DNA of 39,754 bases from a virus: the IMG/VR virus record IMGVR_UViG_3300011116_000526, positions 1-39,754 of that record. The stretch is one strand, 5' to 3'. The number at the start of each line of letters is the position of its first letter. The stretch's first letter is position 1. Positions 1 through 33,631 of the stretch are shown piece by piece. Under the pieces are notes generated by a model, which did no database searches, was not told the DNA's origin, and saw only the letters and a program-made list of their open reading frames with translations. A program made the translations under genes and the position numbers.

Positions 1-183
1 GGCTCATCTACTGGCAGTGTTGAGATTAAAGACGGTGGGTCGAGTGGAACAAGTAAGTTCATCATTAACACGGTTGCTAATGGTGAAACCTTTGCTGTAC
101 TTATTCCTGCTAATGGTGTTTGGTGTAAGACAAGTGCTTACGCCACACTAACTAACGCCAAAGTCACGGTGTTTTATGGCTAA
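1..183 (+). CDS. C-terminal end of a small phage virion-type protein (partial)
   Basis: The reading frame is open from the first base and ends in TAA at 181-183, giving the last 60 residues of a protein whose start lies outside the window. The visible part is rich in Gly, Ser, Thr and Val with alternating hydrophobic residues (for example KFIINTVANGETFAVLIPA), which suggests a beta-rich fold. No catalytic motif is visible. Its stop overlaps the next start by eight bases (ATGGCTAA), so it belongs to the same translationally coupled series as the following small genes. Phage structural or decoration-like protein is an inference from context only. Confidence 0.6.
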   Translation, partial: GSSTGSVEIKDGGSSGTSKFIINTVANGETFAVLIPANGVWCKTSAYATLTNAKVTVFYG

Positions 184-463
184 GGCCAAAGGGATGGGAA
201 TTGCCACTTCAGTGAAGTCAGGCAATTTCCGCCCTACGAAACAGGGTGCTGGCATGACTGAGAAAGGCGTTGCAGCTTATCGCAAGGCCAATCCGGGCAG
301 CAAACTTAAGACGGCTGTGACCAGTGATAACCCTGGCCCGAAAGATGCTGCACGCAGGAAGTCTTTCTGTGCGCGATCAGCCGGCCAGATGAAGCAATTC
401 CCTGAAGCAGCAAAAGATCCCAATAGCCGCATACGGCAGGCAAGACGTAGATGGAAGTGCTAA
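176..463 (+). CDS. Small basic phage protein, DUF6321-like
   Basis: A 95-residue, strongly basic protein. The middle reads ANPGSKLKTAVTSDNPGPK, followed by AARRKSFCARSAGQMK and a C-terminus rich in Arg and Lys ending RRRWKC. The RRKSFCAR core and the ANPGSKLKTAV segment are the pattern I associate with the DUF6321 group of small phage and cyanophage proteins; the assignment is from memory of the family. It has no membrane segment. The basic charge fits nucleic-acid or capsid contact, but the function is unknown. The start overlaps the upstream stop by eight bases and the next gene begins directly after its TAA. Confidence 0.75.
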   Translation: MAKAKGMGIATSVKSGNFRPTKQGAGMTEKGVAAYRKANPGSKLKTAVTSDNPGPKDAARRKSFCARSAGQMKQFPEAAKDPNSRIRQARRRWKC

Positions 464-715
464 ATGGATACCGGCGCTCTTATTTGGAATTTAATCACAT
501 CATTCTTTGTGGGTCTGGTGATGTTCATGCTTAAGCAAGCTTCAGATGAACAGAAGCGCATCCAGATCCTACTGAATAGAACCCGGGAGGAAATTGCCCG
601 TGATCACATCACTCGTGCAGAAGTTCGTGCAGACCTTGAAAGAATCATGGAAAGGTTTGACGCAGGTATTGGCAGGTTGGAAGCAAAAATTGATGCCCTC
701 GCTGAAAGGAAATGA
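464..715 (+). CDS. Small membrane protein with C-terminal coiled coil
   Basis: An 83-residue protein. Residues about 6-24 (LIWNLITSFFVGLVMFML) form one hydrophobic transmembrane segment. The rest is charged and strongly helical (KQASDEQKRIQILLNRTREE and onward, then LERIMERFDAGIGRLEAKIDAL), typical of a coiled coil. This architecture resembles the products of 17352 and 17633 in this window, and phage small holin-like or spanin-like proteins often look like this. It lies far from the lysozyme, so a lysis role is only a guess. The start follows the upstream stop with no gap and GGAAG precedes it. Confidence 0.7.
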   Translation: MDTGALIWNLITSFFVGLVMFMLKQASDEQKRIQILLNRTREEIARDHITRAEVRADLERIMERFDAGIGRLEAKIDALAERK

Positions 716-963
716 TGATGGAAAATGATCCTCGTAAAGGCCGTGGGCGCCATGGCGACACGAACTACAACCCTAATTACGATCTTGTACCCACCCAGAA
801 AGAACGTGGTGCGATGCAACAAGAAGTAGAGGATGCCAAGCTCCGCAAGATGGACCAGCGCCCAAACCTCGGCAGGATGTTTAAAAAGGGCGGTTATGTA
901 TCAGCCGCTGATGGTTGCGCTAAACGTGGCAAGACCAAAGGCACAATGGTCGTGATGAAGTAA
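712..963 (+). CDS. Small phage protein with C-terminal DGCAKRGKTKG motif
   Basis: An 83-residue hydrophilic protein starting at a run of three ATG codons; an SD-like AAGGAA sits immediately before them, so the true start may be the second or third ATG. The start overlaps the upstream TGA (ATGA). The N-terminal half is Asn, Asp and Arg rich. The C-terminus reads KKGGYVSAADGCAKRGKTKG and is the first of three consecutive or near-consecutive genes ending in a DGxAxRGKTxG element. I know similar tails from small proteins of environmental phages, but no function is established. A 22-bp palindrome begins at the last base pair of the stop region. Confidence 0.75.
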   Translation: MMMENDPRKGRGRHGDTNYNPNYDLVPTQKERGAMQQEVEDAKLRKMDQRPNLGRMFKKGGYVSAADGCAKRGKTKGTMVVMK

Positions 964-983
964 TTCCGCCCATGGGCGGAATT
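962..983 (+). repeat. 22-bp perfect palindrome, copy 1 (intergenic)
   Basis: The sequence AATTCCGCCCA is followed directly by its exact reverse complement, giving a perfect 22-bp palindrome between the stop at 961-963 and the SD of the next gene. The identical 22 bp occurs again at 27743-27764 inside a coding region. As RNA it would fold into a nine-base-pair stem with a CATG loop. A T-rich tail is essentially absent (only TTT), so a terminator role is weakly supported. Confidence 0.9.
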
Positions 984-1005
984 TGCTACTAAAGTAGGGG
1001 GTAGT

Positions 1006-1968
1006 ATGAAGAAGCGCAGGCGTTTCCAAGAGGGTGGCGACATTCCTGATATTGATCGGGAGCCACTAAGGGATAGCAGCGGCGAGATTGTTAGGGATAG
1101 TAGCGGTGAGGCCATTATGTCTGGCAGCACGCCAAAGAAACCCTTGCGCCAAGTTATGTCTGAAATGGATGACCAGCAGGGCATAGACCTTAGCAACATA
1201 CGTAAAGCCGAGTCTGCGCCGGTACGAACCGCTCGTATTGAATCAAAAGGTGATACAGATCTTGCTGAGCCTAGTACGGCCGGTTTTTCTCGTACGCCTT
1301 TGAAAACCGCGGCCCCAAAAGTTGAAGCGAAGCCCAAGGCAGAAGTTAAGTCGCAGCCCAAAGCAGAGGTGAAGCCACCGCCCAAGGTGGATGTTAAGGC
1401 TGAGATTGAGAGACTTAAGGCATATGACAAACCGCTTGAAGGGGTATACCCAGAGGCGGCACTTATTGGCGGACCGGGCTTGAAAGCCTTACGGACAATG
1501 CTTTCAGGCGCCGGAAGTAAGGCAGCAACGCAAGCAGCGAAGCCTCGTGTAGAGCCAAAGATTACACAAGAAGCAGCAAAGGTGACACCAAAGAAACCTG
1601 GTGCTGATTATTACTACGGAGCTAACTCGCCCAAGATGGCAGAGAAGCCTGGTGCCATGACAACAAAACCGTCACAAGGCGGAGAGCTTGCTACCAAGGG
1701 CGAGCTAGTTACCAAGGGAAGCGATCTGGCGAAGCGTCGTGAAGCCATGGCGCAGTTAGAATCACCTCGCAGGCGGCTACCCTTTGAGAAGGACATGGGC
1801 AAGGCTAGGCTTGAGACTCAGGCTAACAAGCGCAGGCAGCTTGGTGGATCTAGCCGCAGTAGCGATGTGATTGAGATGGGCATGAAGCGCGGCGGCAAAG
1901 TAGGATCAGCATCGAGCCGTGGCGATGGTATTGCAAAGCGCGGCAAAACACGCGGAAAGTATATCTGA
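1006..1968 (+). CDS. Lys/Pro-rich low-complexity phage protein with RGKTRGK tail
   Basis: A 320-residue hydrophilic protein. It opens with MKKRRRFQEGGDIPD, contains a duplicated REPLRDSSGEIVRDSSGE stretch, then Lys/Pro/Glu repeats around residues 105-135 (KAEVKSQPKAEVKPPPKVDV), and a second low-complexity segment near 195-245. The C-terminus reads KRGGKVGSASSRGDGIAKRG followed by KTRGKYI, the same tail motif as its neighbours. No enzymatic domain is visible. The start is supported by GGGGG about seven bases upstream. It overlaps the next gene by TGATG. Its role is unknown; a flexible virion-associated or scaffold-like protein is possible. Confidence 0.75.
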   Translation: MKKRRRFQEGGDIPDIDREPLRDSSGEIVRDSSGEAIMSGSTPKKPLRQVMSEMDDQQGIDLSNIRKAESAPVRTARIESKGDTDLAEPSTAGFSRTPLKTAAPKVEAKPKAEVKSQPKAEVKPPPKVDVKAEIERLKAYDKPLEGVYPEAALIGGPGLKALRTMLSGAGSKAATQAAKPRVEPKITQEAAKVTPKKPGADYYYGANSPKMAEKPGAMTTKPSQGGELATKGELVTKGSDLAKRREAMAQLESPRRRLPFEKDMGKARLETQANKRRQLGGSSRSSDVIEMGMKRGGKVGSASSRGDGIAKRGKTRGKYI

Positions 1969-2333
1969 TGGATAAAATTGGACGTGTAATGAAAGAGTTC
2001 AAGGAGGGAAAACTTAAGTCCTCCTCTGGGCAGAAAGTAACTAACCCCAAACAAGCCATAGCCATTGGCATATCGGAGCAAAAAGCTATGAAAGGTTACA
2101 AAGCGGGCGGAGAGCCCAAAGCAATGGTCAAGAAAGAAGTTGCCTTTATGAAAGCCAAAGGCGCACCTAAGTCGATGGTCAAGCATGAGATGGCCGAGAT
2201 GAAGGGCATGAAAGCCGGCGGCATGACCAAGATGGGCGCAGTAAAGACTGCCGCTCCAAGCAGAGACGGTGTTGCATCAAAAGGCAAGACAAAAGGCAAG
2301 ATGGTCAAAATGCGTATGGGCGGTTGTGCGTAG
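1968..2333 (+). CDS. DUF6496-like small phage protein
   Basis: A 121-residue Lys/Met-rich protein. Residues 1-36 (MDKIGRVMKEFKEGKLKSSS, then GQKVTNPKQAIAIGISEQ) match the pattern I know as DUF6496, found in many phage and bacterial small proteins. Two related segments follow: PKAMVKKEVAFMKAKGAPKS and MVKHEMAEMKGMKAGG. The C-terminus has SRDGVASKGKTKGKMVKM, a degenerate copy of the DGxAxRGKTxG tail found in the two genes upstream. The gene starts in a TGATG overlap with its neighbour. Function unknown. Confidence 0.8.
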   Translation: MDKIGRVMKEFKEGKLKSSSGQKVTNPKQAIAIGISEQKAMKGYKAGGEPKAMVKKEVAFMKAKGAPKSMVKHEMAEMKGMKAGGMTKMGAVKTAAPSRDGVASKGKTKGKMVKMRMGGCA

Positions 2334-2345
2334 TTAGGTTGAACC

Positions 2346-5300
2346 ATGGGAACACGGGCGGAGCTAGAGTGGCTTCTAGCTAATGGATTAGGCTGGCTTG
2401 TTGATGCCATGGGAGGACCATCGGCATTTCAAGACTCGCCTCCACCACCTCCTCCTGTATACGAACCTCCCCCTCCACCCGTATACCAACCACCCCCGCC
2501 CGTATACGAACCGCCACCACCGCCTCCGCCCGTATACGAGCCCCCACCACCGCCGCCTCCTCCCCCGGTTTATGAACCACCGGTTTATTACGAACCGCCT
2601 GTTTATTACGAGCCCCCACCACCGGCGGCAACAAGTGTTGCAGAGCTTGCCTTTAGCTATGGATTGCCATATCACATAGCCAATACCATAGTGTCACAAT
2701 ATCCTGGAGTGACATTAGGTGATGCGTTAAGTATTTATAACTCTCAGTATCTATCACCACCCCCACCACCACCTCCACCTCCACCCCCACCACCGCCACC
2801 CCCACCACCGCCACCACCCCCTCCGCCACCACCGCCGCCTGCACCACCACCTCCTCCGCCAGGACCAACGGCTGAGCAAATTGCAGAGGCTGAGCGCATA
2901 GCCGCAGAACAGGCAGCAGAAGCGGCGTATTACGAAGAGGAAAGGCAAAGACTTGCTGCTGAAGAAGCTGCAAGAAGGGCTGCTGCTGCGGCAGTGGAAG
3001 AGGAAGAAAGGATCAGGGAGTTAGAAAGACTTGCTGAGGCAGAGCGTTATGCTCAGACGCAAGAAGAGCAACGAAGGATTGCAGAAGCTCAAAGGATAGC
3101 CCAGGAGCAAGCTGCCGCTGCTGAGGCAAAGAGAATAAGGCTTGAACAAGAAGCTGCTGCTGCCGCCGCTGCTCAGGCTGCTGCTCTTTTAGAGATGCAA
3201 AAGGCTGCCGCCGAAGCCGCTGCAAAAGCAGAGGCTGAAGCACAGGCTGCAAAAGATCTTGCTGCTAAACAAGAGGCTGAACGCCTAGCGGCATATTATG
3301 AAGAACAACAAAAGCTAGCCGCAGAAGAGGCAAAAAGAGTAGAAGAGGCCCAAGCTCTTGCCGTGGCGCAGGGGACTGAAGCATTCCAAAAACAGCTCCA
3401 AGAGGCGGCCGGAAAGCTTTTACAAAATGGTGTTGGCGTCGATGAATTAAGGGCCATGGCCATCGATGACCTCAAAATCAATCCCAGTATTGTGGATAAG
3501 GTTCTAGCGAATGTAGTTGGCACCAAGACGCCAGAGCAGTTAGTAACAGATATTCTTGGGTTTAAAACAGAAATCGCAGGGAAACCTGGTGAATACAATA
3601 TTGATGTAGGCAAGATTGTTAATTACGCCAATCAAAACAAGCTGCCCTATACAAACGTCATCAATGATTTAAAAAGTACGCTGCCATCATTGACGCTGGA
3701 CATGCTGGTTTATGAAAACGACCGGCAGGTACTTAGTAAAATTGCGGATGACAAGGGACAGATAGGCTTTATCCCGGCGGTAACGCAAGCCATTAAAGAA
3801 GGTGTAGAGATACAGAATCTCTCCAAATTCTTTGGCAAGACAACGACAGAATTTACAGACATGCTGAGGGCCAACCTTGGCCCGGTTGCCGTGGCTTTAC
3901 GTAGTGCAAATATCAACCCAGAAAATAGCTTGTATGACTTAGCTGGTATTGATAAGAGCGGAACCACGGAAGTTCTGAAGACGGCGGATCTGCAAACAGG
4001 ATTAAATAAGTTAGCCAATACATCAGGCCAGATACCTCTTGATAAGGCACTTATTTATGCACAGGAAAACAGTCTGTCAAATAACAGATTGGCAGAGCTG
4101 CTTGGCATAGAGCCAACGGTTATTAATGACTTCCAAACAAGCCAGCGCATACAAACTGACCTTAACAAGCTTGCGGATAGTTCTGGTGCAATACCTTTTG
4201 ATAAGGCTATTAATTACGCCACAAGCCAAGAGATGAGCTTGGATGATTTGGCCAAATATCTCGGTGTAACTACAGACAAGCTAACAAAGTACCAAGATGA
4301 TCAGAAGATAAGATCCGGGTTGGATCTTGCTTCAGGAGAAGATAAGCAGCTTAGTTACGATGAAATACTGAAGTTTGCTTTAGACAATAAAATCAATCTG
4401 TCTGATCTGGTTAATTACATTGGGACCGAAGAAACAAGGACCGATTTACTTAAAGGTATTAATGATTACGTTGCGGCCAAGGAAGCTGATGCGAAACTAA
4501 CACCGCAAGAGAGATTGCTTGGCCAGCTTAATACGATTACGGATAACGGAAGCAAGAGCGGTACATGGGACAAGAACCGGGGTTGGGAGCATCACTCAAC
4601 CAAGATGGCGGATTATCTTGCCAATTATGGGATCAAGGATTTGTCTCAGGTTGGAACGCGCCAAGAAGTTCGATCGCTACCAAAAACAACCACCGTTCAG
4701 GATGGTAATGATTTCCGTGCTGTTGAAGGTGAAGAAGCAACCAACGTTATTGTTTACTACGACAAACTGACCGGAAAAGAGTTACAAGCCGTACCAACGA
4801 CCCAGAATAATGGTATGTGGGAGTTTGGGTCAGAAGGCGAGGGCTCTGGAAGTACAGGCTATTTCCTTGGTCCGGTGCAAGGTGGTGGTGCGGGTATAAC
4901 TAGCTCATGGCGAGAGAAGTATGGGGCGCAAGAGTACGCACTGCCAGTGGCTATCGTTGCAGCGGTTGCTGCACCTTATTTACTTCCTGAGCTTATTGGA
5001 ACGGCGGTTGGTGGTGTTGAATTAGCCGCTCTAGGCGGGGAAATGACCGCTGGCACTGGTCTCACAGGGATGCTCATGTCTGCCGGCATGTCGGCTCCTG
5101 CCGCTTCACTGACTGCATCAACCATGGCGAAAGGTATTTATAACGGGCTTGTAGCAGAAGCTACGGGTGGTGATTTCAATAAAGGATTTATTGCTGGCGG
5201 TGTTGCACCTGCTGTAGGTCAACAAGTCACAAACATCGTTTACGACAACTTACTTGGAACGATGGACAAGACGGCAGCGATTGCTGTAGCGCGTGCGGCC

Positions 5301-6710
5301 GGAAGCGCCGTTGGACAATTGGTTGCAAAAGGCGAAATTAATATAGCGCAAGCTCTTACTACCGCAGCCATGCCTACGGTAACCAAGGCTATTGTTGATG
5401 CCACAAATGGTGTGGTAACAGAAAATCAAGCCAAGTTCTTGGCGCAAACAGTGTTTAGTGGCGGCAATAACATCACGGCCATGGCTAGCAATCCGCTAGC
5501 AGTTTTGAACTTTGTTCAGCAGAACAAGGGCCTTATTGACGAAATAGCCTCTGGTATAAACCCAACAAAAACAACAAACCCAATTAATTTAAGTGCGCTT
5601 GATAACACGCAAACAAAATATCTGTCAGACGCAGGCGGGTTGATATACCCTGGTTCAACAATAGATCCGTCAAAAGGTACGGATGTAGCGGCGGTTGGCG
5701 ATGTACTGAGCTCCGTTAAATGGTCAGATGGATCGGGTGCCGAAGCTGTTGTTCAAACAGGCCCGGCTCAGTTAACCGTTTATGGTGTAAGAGGCGCCAT
5801 AGATCCGCTTGATATCACTGATGAGATTGGTGTACCAGTCAAAAAGCTTGTGGAAACCACTACGCCGCCGGCCACGGGTATTCCTGGACCAGCAACCGAA
5901 ACGATGACGCCTGCAACGACTGGCCCAATCTCGTTAGTGCCTACAGTGCCGACTACCGGTCCCGCTACAGGCCCAACTTCCGTGCCTTCAACGGGTCCAA
6001 CCACTGGTCCCACTGCCGGCCCTACGACCATACCGTCCACAGGTCCGACTACAGGACCAGCAACTGGACCTACTACTGGACCTGGCACTGGCCCCGGAAC
6101 GGGCCCCGGCACTGGACCTGGCACTGGACCTGGCACTGGACCTGGCACTGGCCCTGGAGCCGTTCCTGGAACAGGACCTGGCACTGGAATAGTTACCGGC
6201 CCAGGAACAGAAGTGGTAACGACACCTCCTGGTTCAGAAACTCCTATAACAGGACCTACAACTCCACCAGTAGTTACTCCTCCGCCGGTGATTACGCCAC
6301 CACCGGTAGTCACGCCAGCGCCTGTTACACCGCCTACGGTAACACCGCCAACAGTTACCCCGGCCCCGGTAGTAACGCCGCCCCCGGTAGTAACGCCGGC
6401 ACCGGTTACGCCACCACCTGTGATTATTCCTCCGCCGGTTATTATTCCACCGCCGATTACGCCACCGATAATTACACCACCCCTAGTGACACCGGCACCG
6501 ACGGGTGACAAAATAACGTATCCAGATGTTTTGCCACCAGAGCTAGGTGATTACTATGGAATACCTTATCCAAATTATCTGAGGCCACTGACGCCTTATA
6601 TGCCACTAGGTTTAGCGGCCCTCTTGGGAGAAAATTATGTTACGCAGCCGAGGTATGGGAGCAATCAACCCTTCCAAAATGCCGAAGGGATCTTTACGTT
6701 CCCGACGTGA
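2346..6710 (+). CDS. Giant proline-rich, coiled-coil, repeat-containing phage protein
   Basis: A 1454-residue protein with a visibly modular build. Residues 28-95 are PPPPVYEPP repeats. Around residue 138 there are 28 consecutive prolines. Residues about 175-360 form an Ala/Glu-rich TolA-like helical rod. Residues about 365-700 hold five or six related helical units of roughly 45-60 residues (for example LNKLADSSGAIPFDKAINYA and LNKLANTSGQIPLDKALIYA). Residues about 865-1040 are Gly/Ala-rich and hydrophobic. The last part has xTGP tetrapeptide repeats and then PPPVVTP repeats. It ends with a short Tyr/Pro-rich tail. The start has AGGT upstream. The family is unknown to me; an elongated virion rod, fibre or internal protein is an inference. 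Confidence 0.8.
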   Translation: MGTRAELEWLLANGLGWLVDAMGGPSAFQDSPPPPPPVYEPPPPPVYQPPPPVYEPPPPPPPVYEPPPPPPPPPVYEPPVYYEPPVYYEPPPPAATSVAELAFSYGLPYHIANTIVSQYPGVTLGDALSIYNSQYLSPPPPPPPPPPPPPPPPPPPPPPPPPPPPAPPPPPPGPTAEQIAEAERIAAEQAAEAAYYEEERQRLAAEEAARRAAAAAVEEEERIRELERLAEAERYAQTQEEQRRIAEAQRIAQEQAAAAEAKRIRLEQEAAAAAAAQAAALLEMQKAAAEAAAKAEAEAQAAKDLAAKQEAERLAAYYEEQQKLAAEEAKRVEEAQALAVAQGTEAFQKQLQEAAGKLLQNGVGVDELRAMAIDDLKINPSIVDKVLANVVGTKTPEQLVTDILGFKTEIAGKPGEYNIDVGKIVNYANQNKLPYTNVINDLKSTLPSLTLDMLVYENDRQVLSKIADDKGQIGFIPAVTQAIKEGVEIQNLSKFFGKTTTEFTDMLRANLGPVAVALRSANINPENSLYDLAGIDKSGTTEVLKTADLQTGLNKLANTSGQIPLDKALIYAQENSLSNNRLAELLGIEPTVINDFQTSQRIQTDLNKLADSSGAIPFDKAINYATSQEMSLDDLAKYLGVTTDKLTKYQDDQKIRSGLDLASGEDKQLSYDEILKFALDNKINLSDLVNYIGTEETRTDLLKGINDYVAAKEADAKLTPQERLLGQLNTITDNGSKSGTWDKNRGWEHHSTKMADYLANYGIKDLSQVGTRQEVRSLPKTTTVQDGNDFRAVEGEEATNVIVYYDKLTGKELQAVPTTQNNGMWEFGSEGEGSGSTGYFLGPVQGGGAGITSSWREKYGAQEYALPVAIVAAVAAPYLLPELIGTAVGGVELAALGGEMTAGTGLTGMLMSAGMSAPAASLTASTMAKGIYNGLVAEATGGDFNKGFIAGGVAPAVGQQVTNIVYDNLLGTMDKTAAIAVARAAGSAVGQLVAKGEINIAQALTTAAMPTVTKAIVDATNGVVTENQAKFLAQTVFSGGNNITAMASNPLAVLNFVQQNKGLIDEIASGINPTKTTNPINLSALDNTQTKYLSDAGGLIYPGSTIDPSKGTDVAAVGDVLSSVKWSDGSGAEAVVQTGPAQLTVYGVRGAIDPLDITDEIGVPVKKLVETTTPPATGIPGPATETMTPATTGPISLVPTVPTTGPATGPTSVPSTGPTTGPTAGPTTIPSTGPTTGPATGPTTGPGTGPGTGPGTGPGTGPGTGPGTGPGAVPGTGPGTGIVTGPGTEVVTTPPGSETPITGPTTPPVVTPPPVITPPPVVTPAPVTPPTVTPPTVTPAPVVTPPPVVTPAPVTPPPVIIPPPVIIPPPITPPIITPPLVTPAPTGDKITYPDVLPPELGDYYGIPYPNYLRPLTPYMPLGLAALLGENYVTQPRYGSNQPFQNAEGIFTFPT
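2758..2868 (+). repeat. CCN-repeat encoding polyproline
   Basis: A run of CCN codons encodes 28 prolines, one alanine and six more prolines. All four proline codons are mixed (CCA, CCC, CCG, CCT), so this is not a pure trinucleotide slippage tract; the protein-level repeat appears maintained while third positions drift. Upstream, at about 2450-2620, a looser repeat of CCCGTATACGAACC-like units encodes PVYEPP blocks. Confidence 0.9.
6108..6155 (+). repeat. 12-bp tandem repeat (xTGP-coding)
   Basis: Three exact copies of GGCACTGGACCT are followed by one variant (GGCACTGGCCCT). They lie inside a longer degenerate array, about 5950-6200, that encodes TTGP, ATGP and GTGP tetrapeptides near the C-terminus of the 1454-residue protein. 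The nearly identical copies imply recent expansion, in contrast to the diverged flanking units. Confidence 0.85.
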
Positions 6711-6921
6711 CAACACGGACTTCATGCAATACAAAGAAGGTGGTAAGGTGTCTAAGGTCAATGAAGCAGGTAATTACACCAAGCCAACCATGCGTAAGAA
6801 CTTGTTTAACCAGATTAAAAGCGCGGCGGTTCAAGGCACAGGGGCAGGAAAATGGTCCGCGAGAAAAAGTCAATTGTTAGCCAAACGATATAAAGCTGCC
6901 GGAGGCGGCTATAGGGACTAA
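6637..6921 (+). CDS. Small basic phage protein (NEAGNYTKPT...WSARKSQLLAK family)
   Basis: A 94-residue basic protein whose core VNEAGNYTKPTMRKNLFNQI and tail GKWSARKSQLLAKRYKAAGG form a pattern I recognise from many phage small proteins (similar to DUF5872); the function of that family is unknown. It contains the KEGGKV element seen in other virion-region proteins here. The chosen ATG at 6637 lies 74 bases inside the upstream gene and is backed by GGGAG at a six-base spacing; a later ATG at 6655 has a poorly spaced SD. An endonuclease gene follows one base after its stop. Confidence 0.75.
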   Translation: MLRSRGMGAINPSKMPKGSLRSRRDNTDFMQYKEGGKVSKVNEAGNYTKPTMRKNLFNQIKSAAVQGTGAGKWSARKSQLLAKRYKAAGGGYRD

Positions 6922-6922
6922 A

Positions 6923-7447
6923 ATGCCATACGCTACAAATGAAAAACGGCGAGCCGCAGAGGCAAAGAAGCGCGAAATGAATTTGCTAGCTAATGGCAAT
7001 GCAAAACTATGCACAAAGTGTTTTACCATGAAGCCGGTCGAATTGTTTAGAAGTCGCGGCGGATCAAATGCGCACCTTTTGAAAAGTGTATGCAACAAGT
7101 GCTTATATGAAGCTCACCGAACTTGGACAGAAAAAAACTCAGATCGTGTTCAAGAGTATCGCAATAAAGATAGCTGGACGCTTGCAAAACGATGTGCGCG
7201 TCGAGGCATAACGCCAGAACAATTGATTGACCGTTACGAACGCCAAGAAGAGTGTTGCGCAATATGCAAGAAGGAGGTAGCTCTAATAGATAGTGCTATT
7301 GATCATAACCATGACACCGGAGAGTTTCGCGGTGTATTGTGTAAACAATGCAATCGAGCGCTAGGTATGTTTAAAGATAGCCCAAATATTTTACGAAACG
7401 CCGTAGAATATCTTGAAGCCTTTGGGAGTTACGGGGATGGTGATTAA
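6923..7447 (+). CDS. Recombination endonuclease VII-like HNH nuclease
   Basis: A 174-residue protein. The N-terminal half carries two CxxC pairs (C30/C33 and C57/C60), likely a zinc ribbon. The C-terminal half has CCAIC at 111-115, then DHNHDTGEFRGVLCKQCN at about 127-144, the signature of the endonuclease VII family, followed by the NxxxxLRNAVEYL-type tail. Family members cut branched DNA or act as free-standing homing nucleases. It sits alone among virion genes, one base after one gene and overlapping the next, so a homing-type insertion is likelier than a T4-like resolvase role. Cutting specificity cannot be read from the sequence. Confidence 0.88.
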   Translation: MPYATNEKRRAAEAKKREMNLLANGNAKLCTKCFTMKPVELFRSRGGSNAHLLKSVCNKCLYEAHRTWTEKNSDRVQEYRNKDSWTLAKRCARRGITPEQLIDRYERQEECCAICKKEVALIDSAIDHNHDTGEFRGVLCKQCNRALGMFKDSPNILRNAVEYLEAFGSYGDGD

Positions 7448-7688
7448 AGCTCCGCAGCAATCTTTGAAAGCCTGGGGAGACCAAAAGTGGCGAACACGAA
7501 GTGGTAAAAGGTCATCAGATACTGGCGAACGTTATCTGCCAGAGGCGGCGATCAAATCTCTTTCACCAGCAGAATATGCAGCAACAACAAGAGCAAAACG
7601 CGCAGGAAAAGCCAAAGGAAAGCAATTTGTTGCTCAACCAAAAGCAATTGCAAAAAAGGTGGCCCCTTTTAGGAAGATAGGAAAGTGA
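7437..7688 (+). CDS. Small basic phage protein (PPQ...W...GERYLPEAAIKSL family)
   Basis: An 83-residue basic protein, MVIKAPQQSLKAWGDQKWRT at the start and GERYLPEAAIKSLSPAEYAA in the middle, with a Lys-rich end. I recognise this pattern from many environmental phages, where it is conserved but uncharacterised. The ATG at 7437 is chosen because GGGAG lies eight bases upstream; the longer frame would need a TTG at 7413 with no SD. The start overlaps the end of the endonuclease gene by 11 bases and the stop forms a GTGA overlap with the next small gene. Confidence 0.75.
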   Translation: MVIKAPQQSLKAWGDQKWRTRSGKRSSDTGERYLPEAAIKSLSPAEYAATTRAKRAGKAKGKQFVAQPKAIAKKVAPFRKIGK

Positions 7689-7843
7689 AGGATTACACTA
7701 AGTTTGAGGTGCAAAAAGAAATACTGATGGAGTATTTACAAGTTATGGTTGCGCTTCAAGACTGGCACGGCGTTGCCGATGTGGCAATGGATCTCCGAGA
7801 ATTAGAGGCTAAACATGAGCACCACAGGAACAACAAGTTTTAA
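7685..7843 (+). CDS. Short hypothetical protein, GTG start
   Basis: A 52-residue protein starting VKDYTKFEVQKEILMEYLQV and continuing with WHGVADVAMDLRELEAKHEH. It is predicted to be helical. The GTG start overlaps the upstream TGA (GTGA) and AGGAAAG-like purines precede it. The end runs 29 bases into the next gene. The composition (DWHGVADVAMDLRELE) looks like a real protein conserved between tube-related genes in related phages. Function unknown; no membrane segment. Confidence 0.6.
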   Translation: MKDYTKFEVQKEILMEYLQVMVALQDWHGVADVAMDLRELEAKHEHHRNNKF

Positions 7844-8789
7844 CCCAAACTTAAATGAGCTTGTTGAAGAGGCATTCGAGCGATGCGGCAGAGAGTTGCG
7901 CTCCGGCTATGATTTGCGTACAGCTCGACGCAGCCTGAACCTATTAGTTACCGAGTGGGCTAACCAAGGGATTAATCTCTGGACTATTGAACAAGGTGCA
8001 ATCCCGCTTTATACAAATCAAATTACCTATCCTTTGCCCATCAATACAGTTGATCTTGTTGAGACGATCATTCGTACAGGTGTTGATCAGAATCAGACAG
8101 ATATCAACATCAGCCGAATCTCGGTAAGTACGTACTCGACAATACCTAACAAGCTAGCAACTGGCAGGCCGATTCAAATTTATATTGATCGGCAGGGTGG
8201 CCAGACATACACATTCACAGGAACCTTGGCGGCTAATATCAATGCATCAGTCACGACCATCCCCATGTCATCCCTCTCAGGGGTTCCATATGCAGGATAT
8301 GCAAACATTGGAGCGGAGACGGTTTATTACTACGGTACTAGCACCCAAGCCGAAAATGTGGCGACGGGTGTTTCAGCCTATGCAACGCTTAATAACGTGG
8401 TGCGTGGACAAAACAATACGACGGCTGCAAGTCATACATCAGGCGCTCAGGTAAGCAATACCAAGTTTCCAAACGTGACGGTATGGCCTGCACCGGATCA
8501 AGGATCTATCAGCAACCCGTATTACACCCTTGTGTACTGGCGCCTGAGAAGGATGCAAGATGCAGGTAACGGTGTTAATGTGGAAGACATACCATTCCGT
8601 TTCCAAGAGGCATTGGTAGCAGGTCTTGCATATAAGCTTTCCATGAAGGTAGAGGGCGGCCTAGAGCGCATGCAATTTCTGAAGGCCCAGTATGATCAGG
8701 CTTGGGAGCTTGCATCAACCGAGGATCGGGAAAAAGCGCCTATTAGGTTTGTACCAAGGCAGGGATTTTTAGGCTTCGGAGGCTACTAA
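7815..8789 (+). CDS. Tail-tube/adaptor-like virion structural protein
   Basis: A 324-residue protein. The N-terminus FNPNLNELVEEAFERCGREL and RTARRSLNLLVTEWANQGIN, the middle ISRISVSTYSTIPNKLATGR and the C-terminal YWRLRRMQDAGNGVN match a widespread phage structural family often annotated as tail tubular protein A-like or head-tail connector. A beta-rich stretch at about residues 131-221 (YTFTGTLAANINASVTT and NVVRGQNNTTAASHTSG) interrupts the segment that is continuous in the shorter relatives I know, so it looks like an inserted domain. It would act in the portal-tail junction. The next gene starts in a TAATG overlap. Confidence 0.78.
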   Translation: MSTTGTTSFNPNLNELVEEAFERCGRELRSGYDLRTARRSLNLLVTEWANQGINLWTIEQGAIPLYTNQITYPLPINTVDLVETIIRTGVDQNQTDINISRISVSTYSTIPNKLATGRPIQIYIDRQGGQTYTFTGTLAANINASVTTIPMSSLSGVPYAGYANIGAETVYYYGTSTQAENVATGVSAYATLNNVVRGQNNTTAASHTSGAQVSNTKFPNVTVWPAPDQGSISNPYYTLVYWRLRRMQDAGNGVNVEDIPFRFQEALVAGLAYKLSMKVEGGLERMQFLKAQYDQAWELASTEDREKAPIRFVPRQGFLGFGGY

Positions 8790-9352
8790 TGACGCATAAA
8801 GACCCAGAGGCCAGAAAAGCTTATTTACGCGAATACGCAAAAAAGAACCCGTCGTACGAGCGTGTAAAAAAATGGAAAAAAGAGAACCCAGAAAAGGTTG
8901 CTGAGGCTAATAAACGCTATGCCGAAAAGCACCCAGAAAAGTTGCGAGAAAAAGCTCTGAGGCACAGAGCCAAAAATATTGAAAAAGTTAGGGAGAAAGA
9001 CCGTATAAACGCGGCTATTTACAGGGAGAAAAACAGAGAAACTGTTTTGGCCAACAAGCGTAAATATCAAAAAAACAATATGCCCAAAATTAACGCGGCA
9101 GTTGCAAAAAGGAAGTCGGCTTTATTGCAAAGAACCCCCGTTTGGTTAGGTGAGGATGACTTATGGCTTATAGAGCAAGCCTATGAGTTAGCGGCGCTAA
9201 GAACAAAAATGTTTGGATTCAAGTGGCACGTTGATCATGTATATCCGCTCCAAGGCAAGATTGTTTCAGGGCTGCATGTTCCAGAAAACTTGCGCGTAAT
9301 ACCTTGGCGAGATAACCTCCGAAAAGGTAACAGGATAGAAGTCCATGCCTAA
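8789..9352 (+). CDS. HNH endonuclease (free-standing, paralog of 18408 gene)
   Basis: A 187-residue protein. Residues 1-110 are Lys/Glu/Arg-rich helical repeats (PEKVAEANKRYAEKHPEKLR), probably DNA binding. The nuclease domain has WHVDHVYPLQGKIVSGLHVP at about 146-164, then NLRVIP and downstream Asn and Lys residues, matching an HNH fold seen in phage homing endonucleases. The 18408 gene has the same C-terminal domain. It begins at TAATG overlapping the upstream stop with GGAGG six bases before, and ends eight bases inside the next gene, so it is translated as part of the structural operon. It lacks the N-terminal zinc ribbon of its paralog. Confidence 0.88.
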   Translation: MTHKDPEARKAYLREYAKKNPSYERVKKWKKENPEKVAEANKRYAEKHPEKLREKALRHRAKNIEKVREKDRINAAIYREKNRETVLANKRKYQKNNMPKINAAVAKRKSALLQRTPVWLGEDDLWLIEQAYELAALRTKMFGFKWHVDHVYPLQGKIVSGLHVPENLRVIPWRDNLRKGNRIEVHA

Positions 9353-9778: not shown

Positions 9779-9937
9779 ATGAAAACGATGGAAGCACTCA
9801 AAAAGCACATGGCCAAAGGTAAAGGAGCCCACCCTGATTCGGATGTTAAGAAGATGAGAAAGGGCGGACCGACTTCTGAAATGATGCGCCGTGAAGGTCG
9901 CAACATGGCTCGGGTAACCAACCAAAGGGGTAAATGA
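9779..9937 (+). CDS. Short basic phage protein
   Basis: A 52-residue protein, MKTMEALKKHMAKGKGAHPD at the start and KKMRKGGPTSEMMRREGRN near the end. AGGAG seven to eight bases before the ATG at 9779 decides the start over a longer in-frame TTG or GTG version that would run through the previous gene. It carries the basic GG element common to other small proteins in this region, and the MxRxGRNMARxxNQ-type end that I have seen in phage small proteins. It overlaps the next gene by ATGA. Function unknown. Confidence 0.72.
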   Translation: MKTMEALKKHMAKGKGAHPDSDVKKMRKGGPTSEMMRREGRNMARVTNQRGK

Positions 9938-10197
9938 TGGCCAAGTATTCCATGAAAATGGGTGGCAAGGAAGTTGGTTCGGCCGCTGTTTACGCAGAGC
10001 CTCATACGATGGATGGTGCCAAAGTTGTTGCCTCTCCACAGCCTGGTAAGCAAATGCCTTACAACATGGTTAAAGATTGGCAGCCAACTGCTGGTGTTGC
10101 GATGAATCCCAACAGCCAAGTAAAAACCACGGGGATTAAAATGCGTGGTGCCGGCGCGGCGACTAAGGGCGTAATGTGCCGAGGGCCAATGGCATAA
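9934..10197 (+). CDS. Small phage protein (GKEVG...TTGIKMRGAGAATKG family)
   Basis: An 87-residue protein with GGKEVGSAAVYAEPHTMDGA and an end TTGIKMRGAGAATKGVMCRG that I recognise from many environmental phages as a conserved uncharacterised protein. Two ATG codons sit at 9934 and 9937; AAAGGGG lies upstream and the first overlaps the previous stop. It is small, Gly/Ala-rich and without a membrane segment. The next gene starts nine bases after its stop. Its consistent position before the adaptor gene suggests a virion role, which is inference. Confidence 0.75.
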   Translation: MMAKYSMKMGGKEVGSAAVYAEPHTMDGAKVVASPQPGKQMPYNMVKDWQPTAGVAMNPNSQVKTTGIKMRGAGAATKGVMCRGPMA

Positions 10198-17926: not shown

Positions 17927-18411
17927 TGTTTGAGTTACTCGGTGGTGGTTTGCTTGGCAGCATCTTTGGTGGCCTGTTCCGGCTCGCCCCTGAAGTCTTA
18001 AAGTTCTTGGACAAGAAGAACGAGCGTCAGCACGAGCTATCCATGTTCCAACTCCAGACCGATCTGGAGAAGATGCGGGGCGAGTTCAAGATGGAGGAGA
18101 AGTATGTTGACTACTCTATCCAGCAGATGGACACAATTAAAGAGGCATTTAAAGAGCAAGCTGAAACGGCTAAAGCAGCGGGTTGGTTCATGTCTTTTAT
18201 CTCAGCCTCTGTTCGCCCAGGAATAACTTGGTTTTTGTTTTTTATGTACGCTGGGGTCAAGGCCGCTTCAATCACACTGGCTTTTCAAGCTGATGCGAAC
18301 TGGGCTGATGTCTTAGTGAAAAGCTGGGATGAAGATGATTTTGGGATGTTGTCAATGGTGCTTTCATTCTTTTTTGTTGGCCGCAGCGTAGAGAAGTACC
18401 AGAAATCATGA
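17926..18411 (+). CDS. Holin-like protein (GTA/3TM holin type)
   Basis: A 161-residue protein. The N-terminus MFELLGGGLLGSIFGGLFRL is Gly-rich and amphipathic. A charged helix follows (residues about 30-85). Two hydrophobic stretches lie at about 90-120 (GWFMSFISASVRPGITWFLF, FMYAGVKAASI) and 139-152 (MLSMVLSFFFVGRSV). This build is close to the family of three-segment holins found in phages and gene-transfer-agent lysis loci. It would form the inner-membrane lesion that lets the lysozyme out. It overlaps the next gene by ATGA, where an HNH gene has come between it and the lysozyme. Confidence 0.75.
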   Translation: MFELLGGGLLGSIFGGLFRLAPEVLKFLDKKNERQHELSMFQLQTDLEKMRGEFKMEEKYVDYSIQQMDTIKEAFKEQAETAKAAGWFMSFISASVRPGITWFLFFMYAGVKAASITLAFQADANWADVLVKSWDEDDFGMLSMVLSFFFVGRSVEKYQKS

Positions 18412-18974
18412 AAACATGTAGCCGGTGCAAAGAAACAAAACCGTTTGATAGTTTTTCGTTTTGCAAAGCCAATAAAGACGGTTATCAAGGATGGTGTCAG
18501 CCGTGTATAAACGAATCACGGCGTAAACCTGTGGAGCCTCCAGAGGTTATTGAGCAAAGGAAAGCCGAGCAACGCCGTATAAAACTGGAAAAGAAACGTC
18601 TTTATTATTTGGCAAACAAGGAAAAACACGCGGCTGACATGGCCGCAAACTACCAAAAAAACAAGACGGAAGTAAAACAACGTGTAGCCGAGTGGAAAAA
18701 ACAAAACGCGGCTAAGGTTAACGCCAACTGCATGAAACGTCATGCCCAAAAATTTAATGCTACTCCATCTTGGCTAACCGAAGATGATCACTGGCTTTTT
18801 GAAGAAGCGTACGACTTGGCAAAATTGCGGACACAAATATTTGGTTTTGTGTGGCACGTTGATCACATCATTCCGTTAAAAGGTAAAAACGTCTGCGGGC
18901 TTCATGTACCAATCAATCTGCAAGTAATACCGGCATCCGAAAATTGTTCAAAACGCAATCGGTTTGAACCATGA
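18408..18974 (+). CDS. HNH endonuclease with N-terminal zinc ribbon (paralog of 8789 gene)
   Basis: A 188-residue protein. CSRC at 4-7 and CQPC at 30-33 form an N-terminal zinc ribbon. A Lys/Glu-rich helical linker follows. The C-terminal nuclease domain has VWHVDHIIPLKGKNVCGLHV and NLQVIPASEN, closely matching the C-terminal part of the 8789 product (WHVDHVYPLQGK). The flanking text also matches: SWLTEDDHWLFEEAYDLAKL versus VWLGEDDLWLIEQAYELAAL. It lies between the holin and the lysozyme, coupled to both by ATGA overlaps, so it probably arrived as a mobile nuclease gene without breaking the cassette. Confidence 0.88.
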   Translation: MKTCSRCKETKPFDSFSFCKANKDGYQGWCQPCINESRRKPVEPPEVIEQRKAEQRRIKLEKKRLYYLANKEKHAADMAANYQKNKTEVKQRVAEWKKQNAAKVNANCMKRHAQKFNATPSWLTEDDHWLFEEAYDLAKLRTQIFGFVWHVDHIIPLKGKNVCGLHVPINLQVIPASENCSKRNRFEP

Positions 18975-26654: not shown

Positions 26655-29600
26655 ATGCCTATCTTCAATGTACCTGGCCGTGGCCGTGTTCAATTACCTG
26701 ATGGCTATACACAAGAAGAGTATGCGTTAGCCATAAGTAAACTCAGTGGGGCTGACCAGTATCAGCCTCAGTTTTCTTTGGGGCAAAAGGCTTTTGCTCC
26801 GATTGCAAGGACGTTGCAAAACATTGGCACGTCCTTAACGACCGAACTCCCGGCCATGGGCCTTGCGGCTATTGGGAAAGATGAAGCCGCTCGTCAGTTA
26901 CTCGGTGAAGCAAAGCAACGCTATGCAGAGACAGAACGCATGGCGCCAAGGATGTACCAGTCTTATGAGGATGTGACAGGTCCGCTATCAGGATTAGGCT
27001 TTGCCTATGAACGGATTGGAGAGGCCTTACCTTATGGACTTGCTATGTTGTTACCTGGGGGCGCCGCTGCTGCTGGTGCTAGAGGTATTGCAGCAAGGGC
27101 TGGAACCGCTGCTACAGAAGCTGCCCTTGCCCGAGGCTTGCCTGCTGCGGCTGCTGAATCTCTTGGCGCAGCTCGTGCAACACAAGTTATGCAACGTGCA
27201 GGACTTGGAGGCGCTGGCATTGGGGGCTTTGCGTTAAACGCCCCTGAAACCTTTGCCAAGATTGCAGAAGAAACCGGTGAGCTCAGACCTGGTGTTGCAT
27301 CGGTTGCTGGAGCGGGTCAAGCTATCTTAGACCTTGTTGCTCCATCTGCATTTCTAAGTAAGCTGGGCTTGTTTGGAAAGCTAAAGGCTAGCGAAGAAAT
27401 TGCAAAACGCGCAGGGCTGAAAGAAGCTGCCAAGGACCTTGCGATCGCAGCCGCTAAGACTGCGCCCAAAGAAGGATTAACGGAAGGCGCACAAGGTGTA
27501 ATTAGTAATGCAGCTGTAGACTTTGTACGCGGCAGTGGTGATCTATTCTCACCAGAGCGCGTCAAAGAATACTTTGAGCAAATGATTTCTGGCACCATCA
27601 GCGGCGGTGCGCTTGGTGCTGCTGGCCGTGGCATTCAGCGTATTGGCATGCCTGTAGAACAAGCTGCACCTATTGAACAGCCCATAACCGCCGAGCCACA
27701 AGTTACACAGCCTGTTGCTGACGACACCCTACTAAAGTATCAAATTCCGCCCATGGGCGGAATTACCCCACAGATCGTTACAGATCAAGCACTTACGCCT
27801 GAAGCCTCAAGTGTTGGCTATCAAGTACCGCCCGAAACTTTCACAGAAACGCCTGTTGACCAGAAATATTTCAATCAATTTGTTGAAGATATTATGGGTG
27901 GGGCGGCGCCTGTTGAACCTGTACAGCCGCAAGATCAGCAGCAGTTTGCAGAAAATGTTCCTGCTCTTGAGGGGCCAAGGGTTCAAACTGTACCGGCCCT
28001 TCCGGCTCCAGAGCCTATAAACATCCCGGTGCCACCATCAGAAACACTCATGCTTGGCGCCCCACAAATGGCGCAAGAAGGTCCGGCCGAGTTTGTTGAG
28101 CCGCCTCCCATGGAGGGTCCGGCACCGCTGAGCGAAGAAGACCAAAGGATTACAGACGAAATAGCTGAGCTAGAAAAGCAAGCGGCTGAACTAGCGACGC
28201 AAAAAGAGGCCGTTGAAGCTAGGGAGCGCAAGCGTAAGACGCAAGGGGATACATTCCTTAATGCGTTGAAGAAGGCCGGTGTTAGCGCTAAGGATGTTGC
28301 AGATATACGCAGAACCCAATCTGACAAGAACCTTGATAGGGCTGTTGTTAGCGGCCTCTTGGACCCATGGCTCGGAGAGTTTTCATCTGCTGCGGTTGAC
28401 CCAACGGATGTGTTTGACCAGAAGATGAAGCAAAACGAGGCGGTCGAGTATCTCAAAGACCGCATCTTGAATTATGACTATGTAAGCGACACGACGAAGG
28501 CTGAGCTTGCTGATTTAGATTTCAAGCTTGACGAAGTGTTAACCATGATTAGGGAGTTTCGCAGTGAACTTGAAGCCAATTTTAAAGCCGCGGAAGCTGC
28601 CGATGAGCAAAGAGTTGTTTATGAGCAAGTGGAACAAGCTATCCCCGAAGGCGAAGAGCGAGTTGCTGAACCTGGCGAAGCTGCCGGACCTGAACGTGAA
28701 GCTGCCCGAGCTGAAGTAACCTTCACGCCTCAGTCTTATGCTGAGCAAATGATGGATGGTACGTTGCCTGATACAGATGAGGCTTATGCGTACTTCCAAG
28801 AGAACCAACAAGAGATTGAGCAGGCACTGTCTGACCTGGAAGAGCGCCGCGCTCAGCCGATGATGAAGGCTACGGCAGACCAGGCTAAAGCGTCACAGAT
28901 CCATGCGAATAATCTAGGTGGGATTGTGGTCTGGCAGGACGGTGATATTGCGCTCATTCGGGCTTATTCCGACAGAACCGGCGATCCTTTGTATGTCGTT
29001 ACCAATGGATCTTTCCGTTCGCGCACAGATGTAGAGAACTACACAGGCAATCTGATCAATGCACCACAAAAGGCGCGGTTAGTTGCGGTCAAGGAATCGC
29101 TTGAGAAGAAGGACAAAGCTCTGCATGACAAATCACCATTCATCAAGTTTGATGCCGATGGTGTCGCAGTGTCGCAAAGCGTTTCCCCGCAATTAGCCGG
29201 TGTGATTGCAGGATGGAAAAAGCTTCTTAAGATTCCGCAGAATGTGTATGTCACAACGATTGAAGATGTGGTGGCTAACCGTGGAAAGTTCACAGGCCCG
29301 CACCGGACGATCGGATCTGCCGCGCTTGGTGGTGAACTTGGTTCCATGCGAAAGATGGCGGATGGTAACTACTACATAGCCTTTACCAAGGACGCATCAG
29401 TTACACGGATGCTAGAGACGCTAGCCCATGAGTTTGGCCACGTCCATGAGCGTGAGTCATTTAAGAGTGCCGATCTTGCAACGCAGCGCTCCATACAAGA
29501 CGAGTTTGATAAGTTCCTAAAATCCTCCAAAGGCAAGTCGGCCAGGGATTACATCGAGTCCATGCGGGCGCGAGGCGTTGGTAAAGTTACTAAAGTCGGA

Positions 29601-32600
29601 GAGAAGACTAAGTTTGAGGATCTAACGCCTTACTGGAAGAGCTTTGGTGAATGGTACGCAGACCAAGTATCACGCTGGGCAACGACATCAGAAAAGCCGC
29701 TGACGGTTGTAGAGAGGTTCTTCAAGCGTCTTGCCGATGCGCTCAAGTCCTTTTACGCCAAGTTACGCAATCAGAAGTACCTGCCTAATGAAACCTTTAA
29801 GCAGTACATGGATAAGGTCACGGCTAGTGTCAAGGACATAGCCCCTGTTCGCGTGGAAGCTAAGCCACTTGGTGTGAAAGACCAGATGGCTTTGTTTATG
29901 CGTGCTATGCAAGCATCTCCTGAAAAAGATATACCGAAATTAATTGAGGATATTCCCAATGATGATTGGCTACAAGGAAAGATTGATTACGCAATAAGAA
30001 AAGGGCGAAACGATTATGGCGTGCCTTTTATGAGCACCGTTACTGGATACTTCCGTAAGCCGGTAGAGGTCCCATTGCGCGTCTTATCAAAACTTAAAGG
30101 AGAGCGTGACGAGCAAAACAACGTCCGCGAAGAATCACTTAAATATATCCGTGACAATTGGGATGAAGTTTCAAAAGAACCGCCGTATATTGAAGTTGCA
30201 TATAACGGCGAAGCATGGGTAAGCGAAGGCAACCATCGTATTATGGTGGCAGCCGAAAAAGGACTGAAATCCTTACCAGTCGAGATACGTTATTTCGACG
30301 GTGGGCAGCGCCGCTTAGGGCCGCTCCATCCATCAAGAATACCTTCCTTGGATGAAGCTTATTCATTAGAGCCAAGTGATACTGAAATTCAGTACATGCG
30401 CCGTAGCGTTGAAGGATTAACCGACGCCGGTAAGGATCTATCGCCACAAGAGCAACAAGATCTGTTCAACGCCGTGGACAAGATTGACGACACGCCTGCT
30501 GAAGGCATGAAGTCCATGGATACGATGATCAAAGACACGCCGTCTTTTGAAGCGACCAAGGAAAAGCTTCGCCAGTTCGTGGGCGATGCAAGCATGAATA
30601 GCTCTAAGAACCTGATGTCGTTCTTGAACATGCGCCAGCTATCAGAGCTAGCCAAGAAAGAGTTGCCCCAGTTTGCTGAGTACTACCGTGTGCTCACGAA
30701 CATGCTGAACGATCGGGATGCCAAGCTGACCGAGGCCGCAAAGACTTTGCAGGAATGGCAGGACTGGTCAAACAAGAATCCTAAGCTTGGCAAGGCGCTG
30801 GATGAAGTGATGCTGGACGCCAGGATGTCTGGCATTGATCCTACTGATCCCATCAAGGCAGAGAAGATTAAGAAGGAGTCTTTTCGCAAGAACTGGGAGA
30901 TGATCAAGGGCACGGAAGGCGAGAAGCTCTTCATCAAGATCCGTGACTTTTACAAAGCACAGCTCTTGCGTAAGAAGGACATCATCGAGCGCCGGCTCAT
31001 GACTGCGTTGCCGGACGGCCCTGTGCGTCAAGCTAATTTACTTGGATTGCGTAAGCAGTTTGAGAAGTTCTTAAACGACGGTCCTTACTTCCCGCTGAAT
31101 CGCTTTGGTGATTACTTCGTTGCCTACGATATTAAGATGCCCAACGGTGAGACGATCCCCTACCATGAGATGTTTGAATCTCAGTCGGATCAACGGGCTC
31201 ACCTACAAAGCATTGAAAAGGACATTGCGTCCGGCAAGGTAAAGAACCTCAAGACGGGTGTTGATTCCAAGGAGCTGTTCTCTCAAGGCGTCATCAAGTC
31301 AGCTTTCTTGAACGACATCTTTGATGCGATCGACAAGACAGACGTTGGCGATCTTGTATCCACGGATACCAAGGCGCGGCTCAAGGACGACATCTACCAG
31401 GCCTATCTGAGCATCATGCCGGATCTGTCTGTGCATAAACACTTCATCCATGCCAAGAAGGTAAGCGGTGCTAGCATGGATATGAAGCGTGCCTTTGCCG
31501 AGACGGTATTCCATAGCACCTACCATCTGGCTAGGCTTGAGTATGGTGGTTCGTTGGATGCGATCGTTGGTGACGCGCAGAAGTATTTCAATGCCCGGGG
31601 TGGGAATGCTCGCGGCCGGTATCTGAACGAACTAAAGCAGCAACATGCAGAGTTCAGTGCGCCCCAGAAGCAGAATCCTATCTGGTCCAAGATCAGCAAC
31701 TTTGCGTTTATGTTCTACCTGACCGCCCCTGCATCGGCACTGGTCAACTTAACGCAGACACCGATCATTGGTATGCCTACCTTGGCAGGTAAGTTCAATG
31801 TTTCATTTACCAAGGCGTCTTCTGCACTAGCCGGTGCATCGAAAGACTTCATGTCGTCACGCACGAAGCTCTTGGAGTTTGACCTTGAGGGCATGTTACG
31901 CAAGGCTGGTAAGACCTTTGAAGCTGATGCACTGAAGGCTTTGGAAAGTACGATCAACCGTACACAGACGCTATCGCTTGCTGGTATTGCAGAGCGACCC
32001 AGTGCGCTCTATGCCTCGGGTATCCGTGGCGCCATGCAGTCCAAGGGGCTTGGAATCTTTGAGAAGGTATCGCTTGGGCTTGGCTACATGTTCAACCAGG
32101 CTGAGCTTTTTAACCGCCAGGTTACAGCGCTTGCTGCCATTCGTTTGGCCAGAGAGATCAATGCTCAAGAGGTTGCAGCCGGCCGGGTTCGTAAGTACGG
32201 TGACGGTGAGATCATTGGTTTGGCAAGGGATCTTGTAGACCAGATTCACTTTGAGTACGCATCTGAGACCAAGCCAAGGTTTATGCGTGGGCCGATCGGT
32301 CAGGTGGTATTGCAGTTTAAGAACTACGCCCAGCAGATGACTTACTTGCTTGTTGATACGTTCAACAAAGCCTTCCTAAGCAACAAAGACTTAGAGCTTC
32401 TTAGGCTCAAGACTTTAGACAAAGGGCTTAGCGAGGAAGAGCGTGCAGATGCCAAGCGTATCTACAACGACGCACTTATGCTGCGTAAAGAGGCCCGCAA
32501 GAAGTTCACTGGGATCATGGGTATGACAGCACTCTTTGCCGGGTATGAAGGACTGCCTTTGTACTGGGTGATTGAAGGTGTGATGAATACGCTCTTTGGT

Positions 32601-33356: not shown

Positions 33357-33631
33357 AACCGCTCGATGGTCATGGCAAGAAGGTCTAACTCGCTAAGCTT
33401 GTAGCGGGTATAAAACCCTCTCTCGCCAAGGCCATGGACGCCTGAGTTTCCTTGATGGTGCTCAGGGCACAAAGGAACTACAAGAAAGTTGCTAGCCCTC
33501 TGGCTCATACCTTGACCCTCCCGGATGTGGTGGATATGAGCCGGTGTCTCCCCAAGGTCTAGGTGTTTGCACAGGATGCACCCCATACTGGCGACGCGAT
33601 CCATGTGCGCTTTATCTGCTTTCCTAGTCAT
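33338..33631 (-). CDS. Ref-type HNH nuclease (RecA-dependent nuclease family)
   Basis: A 97-residue protein. CILC (Cys18 and Cys21), AHIHHIREG at about 31-39, then VVPLCPEHHQGNSGVHG at about 51-66 and GFYTRYKLSELDLLAMTIER match the small nuclease family related to the C-terminal domain of phage P1 Ref. P1 Ref cuts DNA held in a RecA filament; that activity here is inferred. The gene ends 19 bases inside the end of the giant + strand gene, so the two operons converge. It is the last gene of the - strand cluster and starts in an ATGA overlap. It probably acts with the recombination genes upstream. Confidence 0.88.
   Translation of the reverse strand: MTRKADKAHMDRVASMGCILCKHLDLGETPAHIHHIREGQGMSQRASNFLVVPLCPEHHQGNSGVHGLGERGFYTRYKLSELDLLAMTIERFYSSSK

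Follow-up and report, generated by a model that had tools for sequence, protein, structure and literature searches.

A conserved C-terminal peptide on otherwise dissimilar small basic proteins encoded between the capsid and neck genes of aquatic phages

Many small basic proteins encoded by a large uncultured group of aquatic phages end in variants of one short peptide (here, the tag), and the tag is confined to the interval between the capsid and neck genes of one capsid lineage. The motif, its register relative to the C-terminus, its behavior as a separable module, its confinement to the stretch between capsid and neck, and purifying selection on its core in two genes are direct observations. 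By analogy with a known phage system (see below), we lean toward the reading that this tail serves as a docking signal, a short linear motif at the C-terminus that recruits variable small basic proteins into the virion.

The window, by which we mean the whole stretch of DNA that was analyzed, is a complete IMG/VR virus record of 39,754 bases, and three of its genes carry the tag (Table 1). A preliminary description had reported shared C-termini on unrelated bodies for the ORFs that start at 712, 1006, and 1968, and both the ORFs and their ends (DGCAKRGKTKG, DGIAKRGKTRG, and DGVASKGKTKG, respectively) are as written there. The gap from core to stop is exactly three residues in the second protein, and it is 6 and 11 residues in the first and third, respectively. 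The bodies are indeed dissimilar: two pairs gave no alignment, and the third gave E = 0.07 in a single comparison, so the genes are not full-length diverged duplicates. A database search found no PHROG or Pfam match for the body of protein 1, which has 54 distinct relatives, 46 of them matching the tag regular expression and the rest, among the matches listed, carrying near variants. Protein 2 has 34 distinct relatives with lengths from 190 aa upward, and the tag is present in 32 of them. Protein 3 scores 34.6 bits against DUF6496 (Pfam gathering cut-off 24), and its C-terminal half is common to the SKxQHNFM (phrog_16759) family, where it follows the SKxQHNFM domain.

Table 1. Features of the tagged region (positions in the 39,754-base record)
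Feature	Position	Strand	Basis or remark
DUF6321 small basic protein, without the tag here	176..463	+	PF19846, E=3.3e-15
Small protein with hydrophobic N-terminal segment	464..715	+	Often 5' of the tagged cluster
Tagged protein 1 (83 aa)	712..963	+	ORF
Tag of protein 1, KKGGYVSAADGCAKRGKTKGTMVVMK	883..960 (core 910-942)	+	Pattern match
Tagged protein 2 (320 aa), low-complexity body	1006..1968	+	ORF
Tag of protein 2, KRGGKVGSASSRGDGIAKRGKTRGKYI	1885..1965 (core 1924-1956)	+	Pattern match
Tagged protein 3 (121 aa), DUF6496 N-terminal domain	1968..2333	+	PF20106, E=2.4e-8
Tag of protein 3, KAGGMTKMGAVKTAAPSRDGVASKGKTKGKMVKMRMGGCA	2211..2330 (core 2265-2297)	+	Pattern match
phrog_17747 small basic protein, downstream of the tagged cluster	6637..6921	+	E=5.7e-27
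phrog_14910 small basic protein, downstream of the cluster	7413..7688	+	E=1.4e-35
Neck protein, downstream boundary of the tagged interval	7815..8789	+	Conserved neighbor

From its 5' end, the window encodes the DUF6321 protein (56.9 bits against PF19846, above the Pfam gathering cut-off of 28.5), the protein with the hydrophobic N-terminus, the three tagged proteins, and a 1454-residue proline-rich protein, then the small basic phrog_17747 protein, phrog_14910, the neck protein, and the tail genes. In the closest relatives of the record, the homologous genes are preceded by a capsid gene at a distance of ~2.5 kb, so the record starts just downstream of that gene. Among the matches listed, the protein with the hydrophobic N-terminus lies near the tag in 49 of 215 tag loci, and phrog_17747 and phrog_14910 are present in 130 and 92 of the 215, respectively. 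A homolog of the neck protein in another genome (G025, L139:4759-5682) is of the SU10 adaptor family (PF24175, E=2e-7).

Several other features of the window can be recorded here. The proline-rich protein (2346-6710, + strand) has long polyproline tracts and PGTGPGTG repeats, and no PHROG match. HNH-endonuclease-like ORFs, recognized by eye, are found amid the structural genes (6923-7447, 8789-9352, and 18408-18974 on the + strand; 33338-33631 on the - strand), and a small protein at 9934-10197 (+) has the C-terminal end VKTTGIKMRGAGAATKGVMCRGPMA. A second C-terminal motif, RGxGAATKGxxxRGPMA, occurs in 169 of 354 loci, mostly just past the neck gene; RGxGAATKG was rejected as a second tag, being mostly a single gene family per genome.

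The set of tagged proteins pools two scans of IMG/VR, and it is a nonrandom sample whose totals are lower bounds: at least 353 distinct tagged proteins, with bodies in at least 102 families. In 40 whole records, the matches are on one strand and usually span only a few kilobases. The genes run in the order terminase, portal, probable scaffold, capsid (PF25209, Mu gpT-like), fiber/decoration proteins, DUF6321, and tagged cluster, and continue with phrog_17747, phrog_14910, the neck protein (SU10 adaptor family), and the tail. Among the matches listed, 35 tag loci have 6 kb or more of upstream sequence, and all 35 have the capsid gene there on the same strand; of the 50 that extend 6 kb or more downstream, 49 have the neck gene, again on the same strand.

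Selection bias is removed when loci are picked by the capsid gene and not by the tag. In loci chosen this way, 29 of 33 capsid-to-neck intervals contain tags (one to five C-terminal tags each), with 69 tags in 138 kb of capsid-to-neck sequence and 0 in the other 361 kb. Three of the four loci that fail the regular expression have near variants (e.g., GGGIESRGKTRGKYC). The cellular background, which covers one bacterial class only, comprised ~370 gammaproteobacterial genomes; these yielded one unrelated match (DGDADKGKTHG) and four tag matches, all on a single short contig that is phage-like and comes from a metagenome-assembled genome. The motif was thus not found to be common in non-virion proteins, the outcome that the preliminary description had named as counting against a common fate, and the search it had proposed, for the motif near C-termini with gene position recorded, placed every capsid-selected tag between capsid and neck.

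Among the isolates examined, Synechococcus phage MinM2 (OQ594354) has one tagged protein (MM2_5, 2274-3200), also between capsid and neck; the match to its 65,014-base record is equal in identity and length to that of Planktothrix phage Pag-Yong1 (OL906435). The tag was not found within the 50 kb examined of the isolates HTVC023P and CRP-901, whose capsids have 63% and 54% identity to the query capsid, and it is therefore not a universal need of the capsid family. A full-length DUF6321-plus-tag match attributed to HTVC115P was rejected: gp68 of that phage ends after WNC, and the record is without the tag.

The core pattern is DGxAx[RK]G[KR]T[KR]G, and the longer consensus reads GG, ~10 residues including SAS, then R-A/G-D-G-I/C-A-x-R/K-G-K/R-T-K/R-G-R/K-M/I/F-V/C/I; GIExKGKTKGK is one of its variant forms. 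Among the matches listed, the gap from core to stop is exactly three residues in 254 of 353 tagged proteins, the final residue is mostly hydrophobic, and Gly-Gly is present no more than 20 residues upstream of the core in 306 of 353; the Gly-Gly ~10 residues upstream is part of the motif. In 12 loci (including L039, L043, L056, L076, L090, L105, and L109), the core is instead near the N-terminus of a ~60-residue protein (MAYTRSADGIAKKGKTEGKNLGDSGP...).

Chance does not produce such a pattern at the observed rate. The back-translated pattern has three forward matches in the window and none in the reversed control, and when the C-terminal 45 residues of each of the three proteins are shuffled, 3e-5 tagged proteins are expected against 3 observed. 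Across 1717 ORFs from the capsid-chosen loci there are 74 motifs, compared with 0.015 in residue-shuffled ORFs. Deleting one codon from the pattern leaves two matching stretches in the whole of IMG/VR, neither close to a C-terminus, whereas the true-spacing pattern and its Arg variant each match at least 120 stretches.

Libraries and structures offered little on the tag itself. No Pfam, PHROGs, or NCBIfam model covering it recurred across 78 scanned proteins, and the library hits that we inspected were N-terminal domains or at chance level. A tblastn search of 50,697 phage records with the bare tag as query returned nothing useful; because this query is short and partly of low complexity, and because MinM2 carries the tag after all, this result is not evidence of absence. 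A PDB search with a tag-containing profile gave chance matches only, and the literature on the motif, the DUFs, and Pag-Yong1 held nothing bearing on function. In the AlphaFold2 prediction for the tail, made with 80 tails, the tag has a pLDDT of 56 and no secondary structure; in the model of protein 3, the first 40 residues (DUF6496) reach 79-89, the tag region is at ~50, and residues 80-121, which include the tag, are poorly predicted. The tag is thus predicted to be disordered and without an autonomous fold, and the natural reading of these models is a short motif that would fold only upon a partner.

Tagged proteins are short (median 125 aa), only 1 of 319 has a transmembrane segment, and all 319 complete ones are net basic (median charge +15), in each case among the matches listed. 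This basicity, together with the abundance of Lys, Arg, and Gly in the tag, is what would be expected if the tag were a nucleic-acid-binding tail that binds and condenses genome DNA in the capsid or during replication, with no specific protein partner. Charge alone does not call for the conserved Asp, three Gly, and Thr, nor for a conserved distance to the C-terminus, and the use of the tag in one genomic interval only also speaks against such a tail, which we regard as unlikely. Of the fates that the preliminary description had suggested for its three proteins, packaging or a common partner fits every test run, and simple DNA contact is less favored on account of the conserved residues and register.

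The tag also behaves as a separable module. The first scan gave at least 55 loci that have more than one tagged body, and in all of those listed the bodies belong to different families. DUF6321 proteins are tagged in 7 cases, within the cluster, and 75 homologs are untagged (among the matches listed); where relatives in other contigs carry the tag, it is placed after the terminal WNC. Likewise, a small KKPGALR protein is tagged once and untagged 12 times, and the occurrence of both proteins with and without the tag is what identifies it as separable. The SKxQHNFM domain, which is the N-terminus of the largest tagged family (e.g., L006:2406-2534), is also N-terminal in two PHROGs annotated as virion structural protein, and it occurs in jumbo phages too, including phiKZ (PHIKZ165.1, 72% over 43 residues).

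It could be argued that the tagged genes are one ancient family, expanded by local duplication, whose disordered bodies have diverged past recognition so that the tag is the surviving domain. The genes are adjacent, and their low-complexity bodies share recurrent [KR][FYM]xxGG motifs (122 observed vs. 4.2 in shuffles, among the matches listed). Protein 2 provides an example near its N-terminus (RFQEGGD, 1021-1041). However, the bodies include the distinct recognized domains DUF6321, DUF6496, and phrog_16759, and untagged DUF6321 and KKPGALR proteins are found in the same region, which leaves a single family distinctly improbable.

We give still less weight to the proposal that the tag is a stability or interaction signal in the infected cell (for protease protection, chaperone binding, or binding of a host target) with no part in assembly. 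The fixed register from the C-terminus and the mostly hydrophobic last residue do resemble C-terminal recognition signals, but confinement between the capsid and neck genes is unexpected for a signal that acts at the infection stage.

Comparison of tag copies within genomes shows that they do not derive from recent DNA copying: two copies use the same codon for a shared residue 47.6% of the time, compared with the 40.9% that pooled usage predicts. Synonymous sites are nearly saturated, and cores are identical in only 3 of 194 within-genome pairs. On this codon usage we rejected the hardly credible reading of the tag as a functionless peptide, encoded by a recombination linker or gene-conversion tract that serves body shuffling at the DNA level; the bodies do turn over while the 3' end persists, but the codons are nearly unrelated and the amino acids are conserved. 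In relatives of gene 712 the core has an N/S of 0.15 and the body one of 3.44, and in those of gene 1006 the values are 0.27 and 1.70, where N/S is a raw ratio of nonsynonymous to synonymous codon differences (not a model-based dN/dS) and some relatives have exchanged bodies. For gene 1968 the values are 1.07 and 1.35, so the tag there is not clearly constrained. As judged from these ratios, purifying selection acts on the core of genes 712 and 1006, and the bodies of these two genes change fast.

The docking signal that we favor would work as follows. As the head or neck is assembled, the tag would attach late, small, basic, and largely disordered proteins to a single phage partner that they share, candidates for that partner being the scaffold, portal, capsid, or adaptor protein. 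We infer a virion location for the tagged proteins, which would be built into the particle and perhaps injected from it. Observations that count against docking are the N-terminal cores in 12 loci, the core of gene 1968, which is not clearly constrained, the two isolates of the same capsid family in which the 50 kb examined showed no tag, and the lack of a clear T4-like cleavage site (see below). A broader version, which we suggest only tentatively, is that the motif amounts to a general C-terminal cargo code, by which this one aquatic capsid lineage would fill its heads with small basic proteins that evolve fast and form an open-ended set; new bodies would then become virion cargo by gaining the tail, as with bacterial secretion sorting signals. 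If the tag is a virion-loading signal, virion cargo would be predictable from sequence in a very common uncultured phage group, dozens of unannotated small genes would acquire a function, and a short C-terminal handle would be at hand for loading foreign proteins into phage heads.

Three known systems invite comparison. Phage large polyvalent proteins (Iyer et al. 2017, PMC5512222) are late-gene products for which packaging and injection have been predicted, and in this they are like the tagged proteins, but they are giant and multi-domain, whereas the tagged proteins are small and without recognized enzymatic domains. The window encodes a large polyvalent protein of 2233 residues (26655-33356, +) with an LPD39 domain, no such tag, and, by eye, a HEFGH metallopeptidase-like motif. 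In phage SPN3US, a C-terminal propeptide of the prohead protease is proposed to target the protein into the prohead core (PMC7411985). A C-terminal segment as proposed targeting signal is the shared element; that propeptide, however, has 64 residues, belongs to one protein, and is cleaved, and is not a module common to many proteins.

The closest parallel is with the internal proteins of T4, which are highly diverse and have only the capsid-targeting sequence (CTS) conserved (PMC3012670); the CTS is N-terminal and is cut off by the gp21 protease (PMC7411985). Like the CTS of IPI-III and Alt, the tag is a short terminal peptide common to variable, mutually dissimilar phage proteins, and it is because small basic variable bodies, a constant terminal peptide, and a head operon recur here that docking is proposed. 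The tag differs in being C-terminal and in having another sequence. A T4-like cleavage site is not clearly present among the matches listed ([LIVA]xE, 78 vs. 67 expected in tagged proteins; [LI]xE, 40 vs. 16 expected, in only 40 of 328 proteins or 12%). Given this and the C-terminal position, we do not claim membership in the T4 system. Should the tag prove to load proteins into virions, phages would have evolved, independently, a second answer to the task that the N-terminal CTS performs in T4.
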